Both the position numbers and the translations under genes were made by a program. A stretch of 20,627 nucleotides of DNA from a virus. The stretch lies in the IMG/VR virus record IMGVR_UViG_3300012936_000238, positions 1-20,627 of that record; one strand, given 5' to 3'. The notes below the pieces were generated by a model. That model saw only the letters and a program-made list of their open reading frames with translations. It did no database searches and was not told the origin of the DNA. Positions 1 through 6,585 of this stretch are shown one piece after another (positions within the stretch are counted from its first letter, which is position 1; the number at the start of each line of letters is the position of its first letter).

Positions 1-1374
1 TATGATATGTTCCTTACTGGTAGTATAGTATTATTAGATGGTGCGAATTTATATAATAGAATAGGATTTACTGGACAGGAATATATTCGAATACATATCG
101 GTGGTATACAGGGAAACGAACAAATAGTCCCAGAAGACCAGAGAATTAATCAAGTATTTCGAATATTTAATGTATCTTCTAAGTATCAAGACATAGAGAA
201 CCCTAAATTACAATTTTATCGTCTGGAATTTTGTTCACCATTACTCTACGAAGCACGAACTCAGAGAATATCTCAGGCATATAGGAATAATACTTCGAAT
301 TTAATCGGAAATATATGTAAAGAATATTTGGGTTTCTTAGATAATAAAAGTGTGCCTGAAGGCCGTGTGAAAGGGGGGAAGGAACTCGGTAACTTCTTCA
401 CTGAGTTTAGGACTAATGTGGGGAATCAGAGTCGTCTCGTAGTACCTAACTGGACTGTATATAAGACTTTAGAGTGGCTGAGAGACCATACATGTGACCC
501 AAATGACGAGACTTTCGGAGATTCTTTCTATTTCTATCAGACAGCGACCGAAGGATTCAAGTTTCATTCAGTCAGTAACATGGGAAATCGCCAGTATTTG
601 AAAGGTAGAGTGTCATTTGCACCGCGTATGAGTGATGGTAATGAGTCATTTAACTATGATTTTGAGGAAGGAACTGGTCATGACATCCTTGCATATGGTA
701 AAGATGACCTACATAACATAATTGAATCCCATCAACAAGGCTTATATAGTGGTAGTATAACACTTTACGATACCAAAAGCAAGGCCTATCAGACTATAGA
801 GAGTAACTTTAGTCAACAATTTAAGTTAAATAATGATGGAGAATATAAGGGTAATCCTAAGTTATTTGCAAAAGCGCCCAACTTTCGTCTGGGAGATGAG
901 AATATAAAGATACCAGCAGATGGTGGTAATGTAGGTGAAGATATGCCTCAGGCTGTAGATGCATTAAAGCGCCCAGATATTCAGAGACGCCATGGTGCAG
1001 TATACTTTGACTATAAGAATCCCTTTGCATTCTCTGGGGGCCGTGAAGGTATAGGGCCTGAGTCGTATGGGACTAGTACTCTAAGTAAGTTTAATAGAAC
1101 TAGAGTAGAACAATTATTTAAGAACAATAGAATGAATATACAGATTGCTGGTAGGACTAATATTGCATGTGGTATGACTATATTAGTTGATTTAAAACAA
1201 GGATATACTACCATGACCAAGGATGAGATGACACATAATAATGAGATGTTGGTTGAAGGTATTACATGGATAGGAACAGAAGATGGCTTGGAGACACAAC
1301 TCACAATCACTTCGACAGGACATGAAGTACCTATGGACTCATTCGTAGACCATGAACTTGCACCAGAACATTAG
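1..1374 (+). CDS. 27: Baseplate hub protein, gp27-like (5' partial)
   Basis: Probable baseplate hub subunit equivalent to T4 gp27, the ring that joins the tail tube to the central spike. The reading frame is open to base 1 (Tyr-Asp precede the Met at 7), and that Met falls inside what looks like the first hub domain, so the true start is probably upstream. At least 457 residues are present; T4 gp27 has 391. The order of elements fits gp27: a strand GQEYIRIHIGG, then FRIFNVSS, then a domain ending ICKEYLGF, then an aromatic helix YKTLEWLRDHTC. The C-terminal half has GRTNIACGMTILVDL and MLVEGITWIG, which parallel the C-terminal barrel of gp27. The gp5-like partner gene is just downstream. The assignment rests on remembered family patterns, not an alignment; another gpD-type hub protein is the main alternative. 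Arginine codons here are roughly half CGN, unlike later genes. Confidence 0.72.
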   Translation, partial: YDMFLTGSIVLLDGANLYNRIGFTGQEYIRIHIGGIQGNEQIVPEDQRINQVFRIFNVSSKYQDIENPKLQFYRLEFCSPLLYEARTQRISQAYRNNTSNLIGNICKEYLGFLDNKSVPEGRVKGGKELGNFFTEFRTNVGNQSRLVVPNWTVYKTLEWLRDHTCDPNDETFGDSFYFYQTATEGFKFHSVSNMGNRQYLKGRVSFAPRMSDGNESFNYDFEEGTGHDILAYGKDDLHNIIESHQQGLYSGSITLYDTKSKAYQTIESNFSQQFKLNNDGEYKGNPKLFAKAPNFRLGDENIKIPADGGNVGEDMPQAVDALKRPDIQRRHGAVYFDYKNPFAFSGGREGIGPESYGTSTLSKFNRTRVEQLFKNNRMNIQIAGRTNIACGMTILVDLKQGYTTMTKDEMTHNNEMLVEGITWIGTEDGLETQLTITSTGHEVPMDSFVDHELAPEH

Positions 1375-1398: not shown

Positions 1399-1490
1399 GG
1401 GACTCCTAGACTATTTTTTTCTGCCCTTTTGCTGGCCTGAAAATGTCTTGGGAAGTTATGGGACTCCTAAGTTTATTTTGGGACTCCTAA
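1399..1490 (+). repeat. Three copies of the 11-base repeat GGGACTCCTAA between hub gene and panD island
   Basis: GGGACTCCTA occurs at 1399-1408 (followed by G), and GGGACTCCTAA at 1460-1470 and 1480-1490. The first and third copies share the longer core TTTTGGGACTCCTA. A fourth perfect copy lies inside panD (1779-1789). The 139-base gap from 1375 to 1513 has no other coding potential that I can support. I saw no further full copy elsewhere in the window when reading by eye. On the transcript the motif contains CUCCUAA, resembling the anti-Shine-Dalgarno end of 16S rRNA. Function is unknown. Confidence 0.85.
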
Positions 1491-1513: not shown

Positions 1514-1654
1514 ATGTTAAAAGATATACTAGAAACTCACAGAAAAATGATGTATGAATTTATGGAAGTTGCTGGAGTTGATGATTATGGATTGGCATGG
1601 ATTTGTTTTTTAAAAGGTGTTGCATTTACATCTTTTATTGTTTGGATATTCTAA
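1514..1654 (+). CDS. Small putative membrane protein coupled to panD (46 aa)
   Basis: This is an unrecognised 46-residue ORF. It starts at ATG 1514 with a good ribosome binding site (AGGGAG at 1503-1508). The first ~25 residues are polar and probably helical (MLKDILETHRKMMYEF...). The last ~20 (LAWICFLKGVAFTSFIVWIF) are strongly hydrophobic and could form one membrane segment ending at the C-terminus. The stop TAA (1652-1654) overlaps the panD ATG (1654-1656) as TAATG, the same stop/start coupling used between the structural genes here. This suggests it is translated and that PanD synthesis depends on ribosomes ending it. It could be a leader peptide for panD or an independent small membrane protein; no function can be assigned. 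Confidence 0.6.
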   Translation: MLKDILETHRKMMYEFMEVAGVDDYGLAWICFLKGVAFTSFIVWIF

Positions 1655-2016
1655 TGAGTTATGAAATGAAAGGTATAAGATGTTTTTTAAATAGTAAGAT
1701 ACACAATGCAGTCTGTACACATACAGATGTGGACTATGAGGGTTCTATTCTCATAGATGAAGACTACATGGATGAGGTGGGACTCCTAACTCATGAACAG
1801 GTAGATGTATATAATAAGACAAATGGTAATAGACATACTACATATGTTCTACCACTACCCAGAGGTTCAAACCGAGTTGAAGTAAATGGTGCTGGAGCCC
1901 ACCTTACAGATGTAGGAGACGAATTAATTATTTGTTCCTACATTCTTTTAGACACTAATCTAGAAGTATTACCCTTACGACACGAACCGAAGATTAAAAT
2001 AATAGAGAATAATTAA
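1654..2016 (+). CDS. panD: Aspartate 1-decarboxylase (PanD), pyruvoyl-dependent
   Basis: Converts L-aspartate to beta-alanine plus CO2, supplying pantothenate and coenzyme A synthesis in the cytoplasm. The 120-residue product aligns with E. coli PanD (126 aa) at a constant offset of six from the active-site Lys to the active-site Asn. The autocleavage site YEGS is present (Gly30/Ser31, E. coli Gly24/Ser25), giving a ~30-residue beta chain and ~90-residue pyruvoyl alpha chain. Lys15, Arg60, Thr63, Tyr64 and Asn78 match E. coli Lys9, Arg54, Thr57, Tyr58 and Asn72. The segments TNGNRHTTY and VNGAGAH are family hallmarks. I chose ATG 1654 because it overlaps the upstream stop and puts the conserved start MKGIRCFL at residue 5. 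An in-frame ATG at 1597 would add 19 atypical residues over the upstream ORF. The gene abuts the spike gene (stop 2014-2016, ATG 2017), so it is probably transcribed with late structural genes. Confidence 0.95.
   Translation: MSYEMKGIRCFLNSKIHNAVCTHTDVDYEGSILIDEDYMDEVGLLTHEQVDVYNKTNGNRHTTYVLPLPRGSNRVEVNGAGAHLTDVGDELIICSYILLDTNLEVLPLRHEPKIKIIENN
1779..1789 (+). repeat. Fourth copy of GGGACTCCTAA, inside panD
   Basis: A perfect copy of the intergenic 11-mer lies in the panD reading frame, where it encodes part of Val-Gly-Leu-Leu-Thr (residues 42-46) using CTC and CTA leucine codons. It lies 299 bases after the third intergenic copy. The coincidence of an 11-base identity with non-coding copies suggests a selected DNA or RNA site, or shared origin, rather than protein constraint alone. 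Confidence 0.8.
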
Positions 2017-3183
2017 ATGGCAAAGTTTACAGGATTACATAATAATTTTTATACAGGTGTGGTAGAAGACCGAAATGACCCACTAAGTGTTGGTCGTGTT
2101 CGTGTGAGAATATATGGTCTTCATACCGATGATAAGTCTCTCATTGCAAGTTCCGATTTACCTTGGAGTGATGTTCTTATGCCTGTCACTGCACCAGCAC
2201 TATCTGGTTTAGGTATGTCTCCACATGGTTTAGTAGAAGGTTCTACTGTTATGGGATTTTACCGAGACGAAGACGATATGCAAGACTTTGTAGTCATTGG
2301 TAGTCTCTTTGGATTTCCAACCGAAGACTACCGAATTGAATCAAGTAACGATGGCAAGAGTACTACTAAAGGTCGAAGTGCTAATTTTGGATTTAATGAC
2401 CCTCGTTTACCAGAGAAAAAAGAAGATAACTTTGGGCCCGATATAATCAGTGGTTCATCCGATGTAACTTATAGTGGTGTAGAAGGTACTGATTCCGATA
2501 GTGGTAAGAACTGGACTCTACTGGGTAATCTAGACAATGCACCTCTTGGTAGACCGACCTCTTTAGAAGTTTCGACCACTAAAACTGGTGCATTAGGACT
2601 TACAGGAGACCCTATTGTCGATGGTAAAGGTGTCAAAATAAACAATGCAGAACGAGGGATTAATTATCCTAGAGATTTTTATACTAAAGATGCTCTATCA
2701 GATGTCAATGAAAATGCAATCACAGGTGGTAGTTCGACTTATCCAAATAATTTAATTCTAAAACACCAAGGTAATACAGTCAAAGAAGATTATGACAGAG
2801 GACTTGCACCGAAGTATCCATATAATCATATGATAGAAAGTGAGGCTGGTCATGTCCTAGAGATGGATGATACACCAAATCACGAAAGACTACATTTATA
2901 TCATAGGTCTGGAAGTCGTATAGAGTTTATGCCTAAGGGTGATGCAGTCATGAAGGTCATGAATAATTCCTACGAGGTAATATTAAAAGATAAAAAAATA
3001 TTAATTGCTGGTAGTGCAGATATAGAACTTGCAAATGGTGATTATAATTTAATTACTAAAAAGGGTACAACCGAAGATGGTGGTAATGTTTTTATTACAT
3101 GTGATTCTGATATTAATCTTACAGCCACAGGTGCAATTAAATTAAAAGGGAATGTATCAGTCAATGGTACTGCATATGATTAA
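2017..3183 (+). CDS. 5: Baseplate central spike / hub protein, gp5-like, lacking lysozyme domain
   Basis: Equivalent of T4 gp5, the needle beneath the hub that pierces the outer membrane. Residues ~8-105 form a typical gp5/VgrG OB-fold (FYTGVVEDRNDPLSVGRVRVRIYG; SPHGLVEGSTVMGFYRDED; FVVIGSLFG). Residues ~255-300 carry the spike-entry signature MIESEAGHVLEMDDTP...ERLHLYHRSG. The C-terminal ~85 residues are alternating short strands (VMKVMNNSYEVILKDKKILI; INLTATGAIKLKGN), fitting a trimeric beta-helix. At 388 aa it is shorter than T4 gp5 (575 aa). The region from ~110 to ~255 is Gly/Ser/Asp-rich with no lysozyme-like sequence, so I infer a structural spike without muramidase activity. It starts directly after the panD stop with only a weak AGAGAA at 2004-2009. 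Nine of 15 arginine codons are CGN. Confidence 0.88.
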   Translation: MAKFTGLHNNFYTGVVEDRNDPLSVGRVRVRIYGLHTDDKSLIASSDLPWSDVLMPVTAPALSGLGMSPHGLVEGSTVMGFYRDEDDMQDFVVIGSLFGFPTEDYRIESSNDGKSTTKGRSANFGFNDPRLPEKKEDNFGPDIISGSSDVTYSGVEGTDSDSGKNWTLLGNLDNAPLGRPTSLEVSTTKTGALGLTGDPIVDGKGVKINNAERGINYPRDFYTKDALSDVNENAITGGSSTYPNNLILKHQGNTVKEDYDRGLAPKYPYNHMIESEAGHVLEMDDTPNHERLHLYHRSGSRIEFMPKGDAVMKVMNNSYEVILKDKKILIAGSADIELANGDYNLITKKGTTEDGGNVFITCDSDINLTATGAIKLKGNVSVNGTAYD

Positions 3184-4297: not shown

Positions 4298-4717
4298 ATG
4301 AGTGGAAATTATGTAAAAAATCAAAACAAGATAACTGCAAGAAGGTGGTATACTGATATGGATTTAAATATCACACCACATCCTTCTACTGGAGATTTAA
4401 TTCTTAAGTATGACAAAGACGCAATCAAAAGGTCACTAAGAAATATTATGTTGACTAATGATTACGAAAGACCTTTTAGACCAGGCTTTGGTGCAAATCT
4501 AAGAAGTCTTTTATTTGAACTTGCAGATGATATTACTAAGTTTGAAATAAGAAAACAAATTACAGAAGCAATAGAAGACTTTGAACCTAGAGTTGCGATT
4601 GATGAGATATATTTAAATCAAGATAGAAATAATAGAATGTATATCAATATTCACTATGGAATTAGAGGTGTACCAGAAGCACAAGAGTTGGAAGTTGTAT
4701 TGGAGAGAGTACGATAA
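4298..4717 (+). CDS. 25: Baseplate wedge protein gp25 (TssE/lysozyme-like fold family)
   Basis: Small baseplate wedge subunit that, with gp6, forms the core connecting wedges to the hub and the first sheath ring. At 139 aa it is close to T4 gp25 (132 aa). Family features are the N-terminal RRWYTDMDLNIT (T4 has LYSDID), the central IKRSLRNIMLTNDYERPFRPGFGANLRSLLFE, and the near-invariant FEPRV motif followed by two strands. I kept the start at 4298 because it retains the YxDxD segment; the later ATG at 4358 would delete it. It follows the previous stop by eight bases with a poorly placed AGAAGG (4277-4282), and ends in a TAATG overlap with gene 6. Only one of its 14 arginine codons is CGN, in contrast to the spike gene. 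Confidence 0.92.
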   Translation: MSGNYVKNQNKITARRWYTDMDLNITPHPSTGDLILKYDKDAIKRSLRNIMLTNDYERPFRPGFGANLRSLLFELADDITKFEIRKQITEAIEDFEPRVAIDEIYLNQDRNNRMYINIHYGIRGVPEAQELEVVLERVR

Positions 4718-6585
4718 TGGCAGTTAAAAGTTCACAAATTAATATCACCGATTTAGACTTTGATGATATTTCAAAAAATTTAAAAGAATATCTTAAGGGT
4801 CAACAGACTCTTAAAGATTACAATTTTGAAGGGAGTAATATTAGTTTACTCATAGACCTTCTTGCATATAGTTCACATGTATCAGCTTTCAATGCAAACA
4901 TGGTTGCATCTGAGTTATTCTTAGATACTGCACAGATAAGAAAGAATGTAGTTTCTCGTGCAAAAGAAATAGGTTATACACCTACTAGTGCAACTGCCTC
5001 AATGGCAACAATAGATTTACAAGTAAACAATCCTATTATTGGTGGACAAGTACCCACAACACTTACACTTAATAGAGGTCATAAATTCAAAACAGTATTC
5101 GATGGATTTAATTTTCCATTTGTATTACTAGAGTCAACAACAATATCACCATTGAATGGTGTTTATAAATTTGAAGGTCTTGAGTTATATCAAGGAACAA
5201 TGAACTCAGACATATTTTTATACAATGGTCAAGTACAAAATCAAAGATTCCCATTGACAGAGGAAGGAGTAGATACAAAAAGTATTACAGTTACAGTAGA
5301 GTCAACAGGTGGTTCTAGTTCTGCATGGACAGAATCTACAGATATTAGTGGTTTAGATTCTACAAGTAAAGCATGGTATGTACAAGAAAATGACTTAGGA
5401 CAATTTGAAATATATTTTGGTGATGGTGTAATTAGTGCAGAACCTTTAGATGGTGACACGATTACAGTGTCATACTTAGTAACAAATGAAGACCATATAA
5501 ATGGTGCAACAGTATTTACCATGACAGATTCAATTGCAAATAATACAGATGTTACAATAACAAATGTAACACAGTCTTCTGGTGGTAAAGAAAAAGAGTC
5601 TGTAGACTCAATTAAGTTTGCAGCCTCTAAGTTTTATACATCACAAAATAGATTAGTAACAGTAGATGATTACAAATCTAAACTACAAACTTTATACCCA
5701 GGCGCAGATTCTATATCTGTTTGGGGTGGAGAAGATAACAATCCACCACAATATGGAAAGATATTCATTGCAATTAAGCCTGGGCAAAATGTAAATAGAT
5801 TAACAAGTTCTGAAAAAGTTATCCTAAGAGACAAGATGAAATCACTAAATATGTTAACAGTCAGACCACAAATAGTTGATGCTGATATTATTGATATTGC
5901 AATTACAAGCAACTTCAAATTTAACCCTCGTGCAACAACTAAAACTGTATCTGAACTAGAAACACTTGTTAGGGCTGCAATTGTAACACACGACAGTACC
6001 TATCTAAGTGGGTTTGATAGTATTTTTAGGCACTCAGTTCTAGCAAGAGACATAGACAGTGCAGAATCTTCGATTCTTTCGAACACTACAACTGTCAAAC
6101 TTCGTAAAACAATCTCACCTACACTGAGTGAGAGTAAAGGTTACACTGTAGAATTTGGCAGTGGTAACTCTTTCTACAATCCACATACAGGACACAACAA
6201 ACACAATGGTGGTATATTAACAACCACAGGATTTATCGTATCTGGTGATACCCAGACTTCTTTCTTTGACGATGATGGAGAGGGAAATCTTCGAAGATAT
6301 TCTATGGTTGGTTCAACAAGAGTTTATAGTGATAATCAAGCAGGAACAGTTGATTACACAAATGGTAAAATAACAGTTAATGGTATTAATATAATTTCAA
6401 CAAATAATACCGATGGAACAATTCACTTTGTAGTGATTCCAAATTCATATGATGCAGTTGCATTTAGAAATAACCTTCTAGATATTAACACATCATTGAT
6501 AAATGTGACTGGTGCAACAGACACCATCGCATCTGGTGATACGAGTGCTGGGGTGGGATATACATCCTCGTCTAGTTACTCCTAA
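4717..6585 (+). CDS. 6: Baseplate wedge protein gp6
   Basis: Core wedge protein of the gp6/gpJ family. It forms the continuous inner ring of the baseplate whose rearrangement triggers sheath contraction. At 622 aa it is near T4 gp6 (660 aa). Residues ~1-90 carry the family N-terminus: ITDLDFDDISKNLKEYL, then SLLIDLLAYSSHVSAFNANM, then ELFLDTAQIRKNVVSRAKEI. The middle has VTVDDYKSKLQTLYPGADSI followed by VWGGEDNNPPQYGKIFIAIK (~residues 316-355), another characteristic stretch. The C-terminus is beta-rich and ends in Ser/Gly repeats. Its ATG overlaps the gp25 stop by one base. It is followed by two hairpins, so the upstream transcription unit probably ends after this gene. Confidence 0.93.
   Translation: MAVKSSQINITDLDFDDISKNLKEYLKGQQTLKDYNFEGSNISLLIDLLAYSSHVSAFNANMVASELFLDTAQIRKNVVSRAKEIGYTPTSATASMATIDLQVNNPIIGGQVPTTLTLNRGHKFKTVFDGFNFPFVLLESTTISPLNGVYKFEGLELYQGTMNSDIFLYNGQVQNQRFPLTEEGVDTKSITVTVESTGGSSSAWTESTDISGLDSTSKAWYVQENDLGQFEIYFGDGVISAEPLDGDTITVSYLVTNEDHINGATVFTMTDSIANNTDVTITNVTQSSGGKEKESVDSIKFAASKFYTSQNRLVTVDDYKSKLQTLYPGADSISVWGGEDNNPPQYGKIFIAIKPGQNVNRLTSSEKVILRDKMKSLNMLTVRPQIVDADIIDIAITSNFKFNPRATTKTVSELETLVRAAIVTHDSTYLSGFDSIFRHSVLARDIDSAESSILSNTTTVKLRKTISPTLSESKGYTVEFGSGNSFYNPHTGHNKHNGGILTTTGFIVSGDTQTSFFDDDGEGNLRRYSMVGSTRVYSDNQAGTVDYTNGKITVNGINIISTNNTDGTIHFVVIPNSYDAVAFRNNLLDINTSLINVTGATDTIASGDTSAGVGYTSSSSYS

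Follow-up and report, generated by a model that had tools for sequence, protein, structure and literature searches.

PanD proteins, the pyruvoyl-dependent aspartate decarboxylases, have been divided into classes, of which class II matures by itself without PanM/PanZ (PMC4537548). Among isolated phages an annotated panD is found in two, the Gordonia/Rhodococcus phage Jace and Achromobacter phage 2-1, and elsewhere viral PanDs are sporadic, some of them on contigs of 100-390 kb. Here we analyze a stretch of viral DNA of 20,627 nucleotides (IMG/VR record IMGVR_UViG_3300012936_000238; "the window"), where panD lies in a cluster of baseplate genes. The original prediction for this locus had called the gene unexpected and perhaps undescribed. 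This is softened by the annotations above; for panD in a hub gene cluster, no published description was found in the literature searched, which takes in few subscription journals.

The open reading frame at 1654-2016 on the + strand encodes a protein of 120 amino acids, and was assigned as panD by Pfam, PDB match, alignment and fold model. The product matched Asp_decarbox (PF02261) with E=3.6e-33 and a bit score of 114 (cut-off 25). With NCBIfam TIGR00223 the score was 102.5, just below the equivalog cut-off of 106, and we read this narrow miss as divergence rather than loss of function. The best solved structures in the PDB were those of E. coli PanD (E~8e-25). An ungapped alignment of residues 7-99 to residues 1-93 of E. 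coli PanD gave 42/93 identities and placed E. coli K9 at K15, Y22 at Y28, G24-S25 at G30-S31, R54 at R60, T57 at T63, Y58 at Y64 and N72 at N78. An intact PanD with its active-site residues and Gly30-Ser31 in gap-free register had been predicted, and all catalytic positions agree. The catalytic residues did not vary across the aligned phage and bacterial PanDs, and the Gly-Ser pair (codons at 1741-1746, +), which is the predicted site of zymogen self-cleavage, was likewise invariant among phage and bacterial relatives. An AlphaFold model built from an alignment of phage and bacterial sequences had a pLDDT of 89.5, while a model from a phage-only alignment reached 38 and was discarded. The retained model has the double-psi beta-barrel fold and superimposed on unprocessed E. 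coli PanD (1PPY/1PT1) with a TM-score of 0.86-0.90 and an rmsd of 1.5. A structure search of BFVD returned zero viral models below E 0.001. The window PanD is very probably an active enzyme.

Upstream of panD, a tail/baseplate gene occupies 1-1374 (+), with its 5' end outside the window. It matched the "tail protein" family phrog_350 (E=1.3e-30). Neither a PDB nor a Pfam match names this gene as gp27, and it is therefore termed gp27-like on synteny; a full-length homologue (E=6.7e-45) is found on contig L007, where a phrog_232 wedge gene precedes it. Between this gene and panD lies orf46 (1514-1654, +), encoding a protein of 46 amino acids with a hydrophobic C-terminus that is conserved throughout the clade, had no match in Pfam or PHROG, and shares one base with the start of panD (TAATG). 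Relatives carry additional small ORFs between orf46 and panD, so that this interval is variable while panD is constant. The baseplate hub gene gp5 (2017-3183, +; Gp5_OB E=2e-14, phrog_430 E=2.3e-65) contains an OB domain and begins directly 3' of the panD stop codon. It is followed by a gene for a 368-aa protein, by the baseplate wedge genes gp25 and gp6 (4298-6585, +; assigned by Pfam/PHROG and used as clade markers), and later by gp8. The T4-like setting foreseen for panD is supported. The placement between two baseplate hub genes holds on the side of gp5, but on the other side orf46 intervenes and the upstream gene is gp27-like by synteny only. No match to the Gp23 capsid family was obtained anywhere, a result with no bearing either way.

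The original prediction came with the advice to search viral genomes for PanD and its synteny. By IMG/VR protein scans, panD was found at this place in 42 contigs, and in one more contig within a Synechococcus metagenome-assembled genome (MAG). Both flanks were readable in 34 contigs, and the order of the tail genes was identical in all of them (34/34). The clade contigs without panD that were found via gp6 or gp5 all start downstream of the panD position, and L259, found via the repeat TGGGACTCCTA described below, stops at orf46. In 3 contigs of the closest sister lineage (59-60% identity in gp6), gp5 comes immediately after the gp27-like gene, and in a more distant contig (gp6 53%) a 79-aa ORF lies between the two. 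From these contigs panD looks to have been acquired within the window clade.

Relative to 17 relatives, the median pN/pS was 0.23 for panD (dS ~1.3), 0.23 for gp25, 0.25 for gp6, 0.45 for gp5 and 0.47 for the gp27-like gene. Purifying selection on panD was hence equal to that on the most conserved wedge genes and stronger than that on the gp27-like gene and gp5. In most of the 82 core panD codons the amino acid never changes despite variation at synonymous sites, which together with the low pN/pS indicates that panD is kept for its protein. An auxiliary metabolic gene would lie in a true phage genome under purifying selection, both of which were found for panD, and would alter host metabolism during infection. 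An isolated metabolic gene within a tail cluster could in principle have arrived recently as a passenger, be decaying or stem from faulty assembly, and one mosaic contig, L231 (1-14915, found via TGGGACTCCTA), lacks panD; in this contig a different lineage's terminase-side genes follow the gp27-like gene, orf46 and a small ORF. However, L231 is also without gp5, gp25 and gp6; with essential baseplate genes missing as well, it is rearranged or chimeric and gives no clean case of a genome without panD. Dozens of independent contigs with the same arrangement leave no room for a chimera at 1375-2016, the event that had been named as a possible refutation, and a dS above 1 with low pN/pS and frozen catalytic residues does not fit a newcomer or a gene in decay. 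Synteny and selection mainly refute this explanation, to which we give almost no credence.

By gp6, the nearest isolates were Methylophilales phage Melnitz (OM43) and the Pelagibacter phages Mosig and HTVC008M (40-43%), and the best gp6 matches thus place the structural genes nearest the Pelagimyophage/Kyanoviridae group. These three phages had no match to panD, nor was one found around their gp5 and gp6. A relative of 146 kb, G001, may be near complete, as a sequence of 37 bases recurs close to both of its ends. It carries curli-type, Hsp20, IscU and adenylate-cyclase genes, several of which we take to be such by eye; Curlin repeat and NifU_N were found by Pfam. The psbA motif was absent from G001. 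A clade contig of 30 kb (L043, NYUU01000001.1) is binned in the Synechococcus MAG, as a mis-binning or as a hint to the host. A cyanophage reading was not adopted, given the lack of psbA motifs in G001 and a gp6 nearer to pelagiphages and OM43 phages. The nearest isolates and the gene content of G001 suggest that the host is likely a streamlined marine heterotroph.

For three Pelagibacter (SAR11) strains, a homology survey, on which the panD status of SAR11 given here rests, lists KPHMT (panB) and PS (panC) as 1 and ADC (panD), GAD and PYD3 as 0 (PMC7142369, Table A2). In the picocyanobacterial family, panD was found in 0/120 genomes, excluding one that holds the phage contig, and panC in 56/61. 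Either host group would thus have a gap that PanD fills, which makes the suggested link to a streamlined marine host without panD a plausible one. No panC was found in 15 phage contigs.

In a phylogenetic tree the clade PanDs group with those of a second viral type (L188-L191) on a long branch (support 99/95), apart from every bacterial sequence sampled. A phylogeny against host PanD had also been advised; the tree with bacterial PanDs points to a phage-specific lineage whose deep placement it does not resolve. The best bacterial match was 50% identical among about 85,000 species genomes, in a search that reaches close relatives only. The second viral type (L188:809-9722) carries the closest other PanD, whose gene lies near AMP-binding and carbamoyltransferase genes and a gene that we take, by eye, to be PhoH-like.

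This neighborhood bears on the question whether the beta-alanine could serve another phage use, such as decorating hypermodified DNA or a surface structure. The AMP-binding and carbamoyltransferase genes close to panD would suit such a use, as would G001 (L062, L063), in which a C5-methyltransferase-like gene is directly followed by a Tet/JBP oxygenase gene with a P-loop nucleotide kinase gene nearby. The latter set suggests that the phage DNA is modified. None of these genes adjoins panD in the window clade, however, the set was read from one near-complete genome, and we know of no DNA modification that uses beta-alanine. We regard decoration as very improbable.

Most clade PanDs (e.g., L003:2203-2598) end in a C-terminal tail found only in the phage proteins, DPKDRxYRELLGL, with conservation and selection at the protein level. 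This tail, together with the invariant position and the coupling to hub genes, would be expected if PanD, whether repurposed or moonlighting, served in the virion or in assembly of the hub, and such a function would explain the fixed site. Against it, the whole catalytic set is retained, which is needless for structure, and the tail is missing from the window (2005-2016), L001 and L002 and occurs in no other protein of G001. Moreover, the closest PanD kin belongs to a different viral type, where panD is near the PhoH-like gene, and the panDs of isolate phages adjoin exonuclease/ParB or polymerase genes. A virion role is therefore considered unlikely, less so than decoration.

We consider it likely that panD, as an auxiliary metabolic gene expressed late, encodes a working aspartate 1-decarboxylase. 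Self-cleavage of the zymogen would occur at Gly30-Ser31, with maturation assumed to proceed without PanM/PanZ, and the cleaved protein would assemble as the usual tetramer and turn aspartate into beta-alanine, from which host PanC and the CoA enzymes would yield pantothenate and CoA during virion production. As the probable hosts have panC but no panD, the phage would open the single blocked step. We infer activity, late timing, host identity and CoA as the benefit. The late expression that had been proposed is probable from the position in the tail cluster and from TATAAATA late-type motifs, of which G001 contains 23 on the coding strand and 3 on the opposite strand, many of them preceding structural genes. 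The total was close to that of shuffled sequence, and the support from these motifs therefore lies in their strand bias and position. An exact TATAAATA precedes orf46-panD in some relatives, whereas the promoter in the window has no exact copy. As counterpoints to a supply of CoA, phage relatives infecting SAR11 and OM43 manage without panD, SAR11 and OM43 are cultured in media with added pantothenate, and unrelated host enzymes may be a source of beta-alanine. The physiological purpose of the phage panD is well motivated but unproven. Vitamin limits shape the ecology of streamlined ocean bacteria, and if the enzyme is active, the phage gives such cells back precisely the step that their vitamin pathway lacks. 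Two questions thereby become testable, namely if phage production is limited by the supply of CoA and why a metabolic gene is fixed among tail genes.

A putative element not described before this analysis was found at the panD locus. It consists of a conserved non-coding region upstream of orf46-panD (1386-1513, +) with three copies of TGGGACTCCTA, a near-palindromic 11-mer, at 1398-1408, 1459-1469 and 1479-1489 (+), and was present in the clade contigs wherever the region was readable. Copies 2 and 3 could pair to form a hairpin, and copy 3 adjoins a late-promoter-like TAAATA/TATAAATA. RNAalifold predicted pairs between the motif copies with almost no covariation, since the motif is invariant, and Rfam gave chance matches only in the region upstream of orf46. 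A fourth copy (1778-1788, +) lies within panD codons 40-44 (GAT GAG GTG GGA CTC), which showed no difference among the distinct clade sequences (34/34). This is so although CTC and GTG are seldom used there (for 4% and 9% of the respective amino acids), so that the nucleotides themselves seem to be constrained. In the 146 kb of G001, TGGGACTCCTA occurs four times, all at the panD locus. When IMG/VR was scanned for two nearby copies, about 40 unrelated contigs were recovered besides the clade; a rough base-count estimate puts the chance expectation at only a few such pairs. Among the unrelated contigs (including L225, L238, L249, L252, L258, L261, L263, L267 and L299), AT-rich clusters with irregular spacing are present in many, and plain tandem coding repeats in some. 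An element common to unrelated viruses, bound by a factor or spread by a mobile process, might control the panD locus and make the output of beta-alanine a switched late function, an idea that we hold only tentatively and rate as doubtful. The conserved repeat is a separate question that is directly testable.

Compared to bacterial PanD (PF02261, e.g., E. coli 1PPY), the phage form has the same fold, catalytic residues, Gly-Ser site and gap-free core. It differs in forming a phage-specific lineage on a long branch, in having Tyr53 where E. coli has Trp47, in the C-terminal tail added in most members, and in the setting of its gene, a cluster of tail genes that has no panC. The genes of Jace and Achromobacter phage 2-1 are likewise phage-borne aspartate decarboxylase genes, but they come from other phage types, have other neighbors and encode proteins of 31-38% identity. 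By alignment, Achromobacter phage 2-1 PanD has His at the positions of both Arg54 and Asn72, which makes its activity doubtful. HTVC008M, Mosig and Melnitz share a similar gp25-gp6-gp8 order with the window clade, and curli-type genes with G001, whereas they lack panD and have other genes around gp5. As with phage auxiliary metabolic genes in general, a metabolic enzyme of host type is kept by the phage; here, however, it is an enzyme for a pantothenate precursor, and its gene is fixed within the hub gene cluster.
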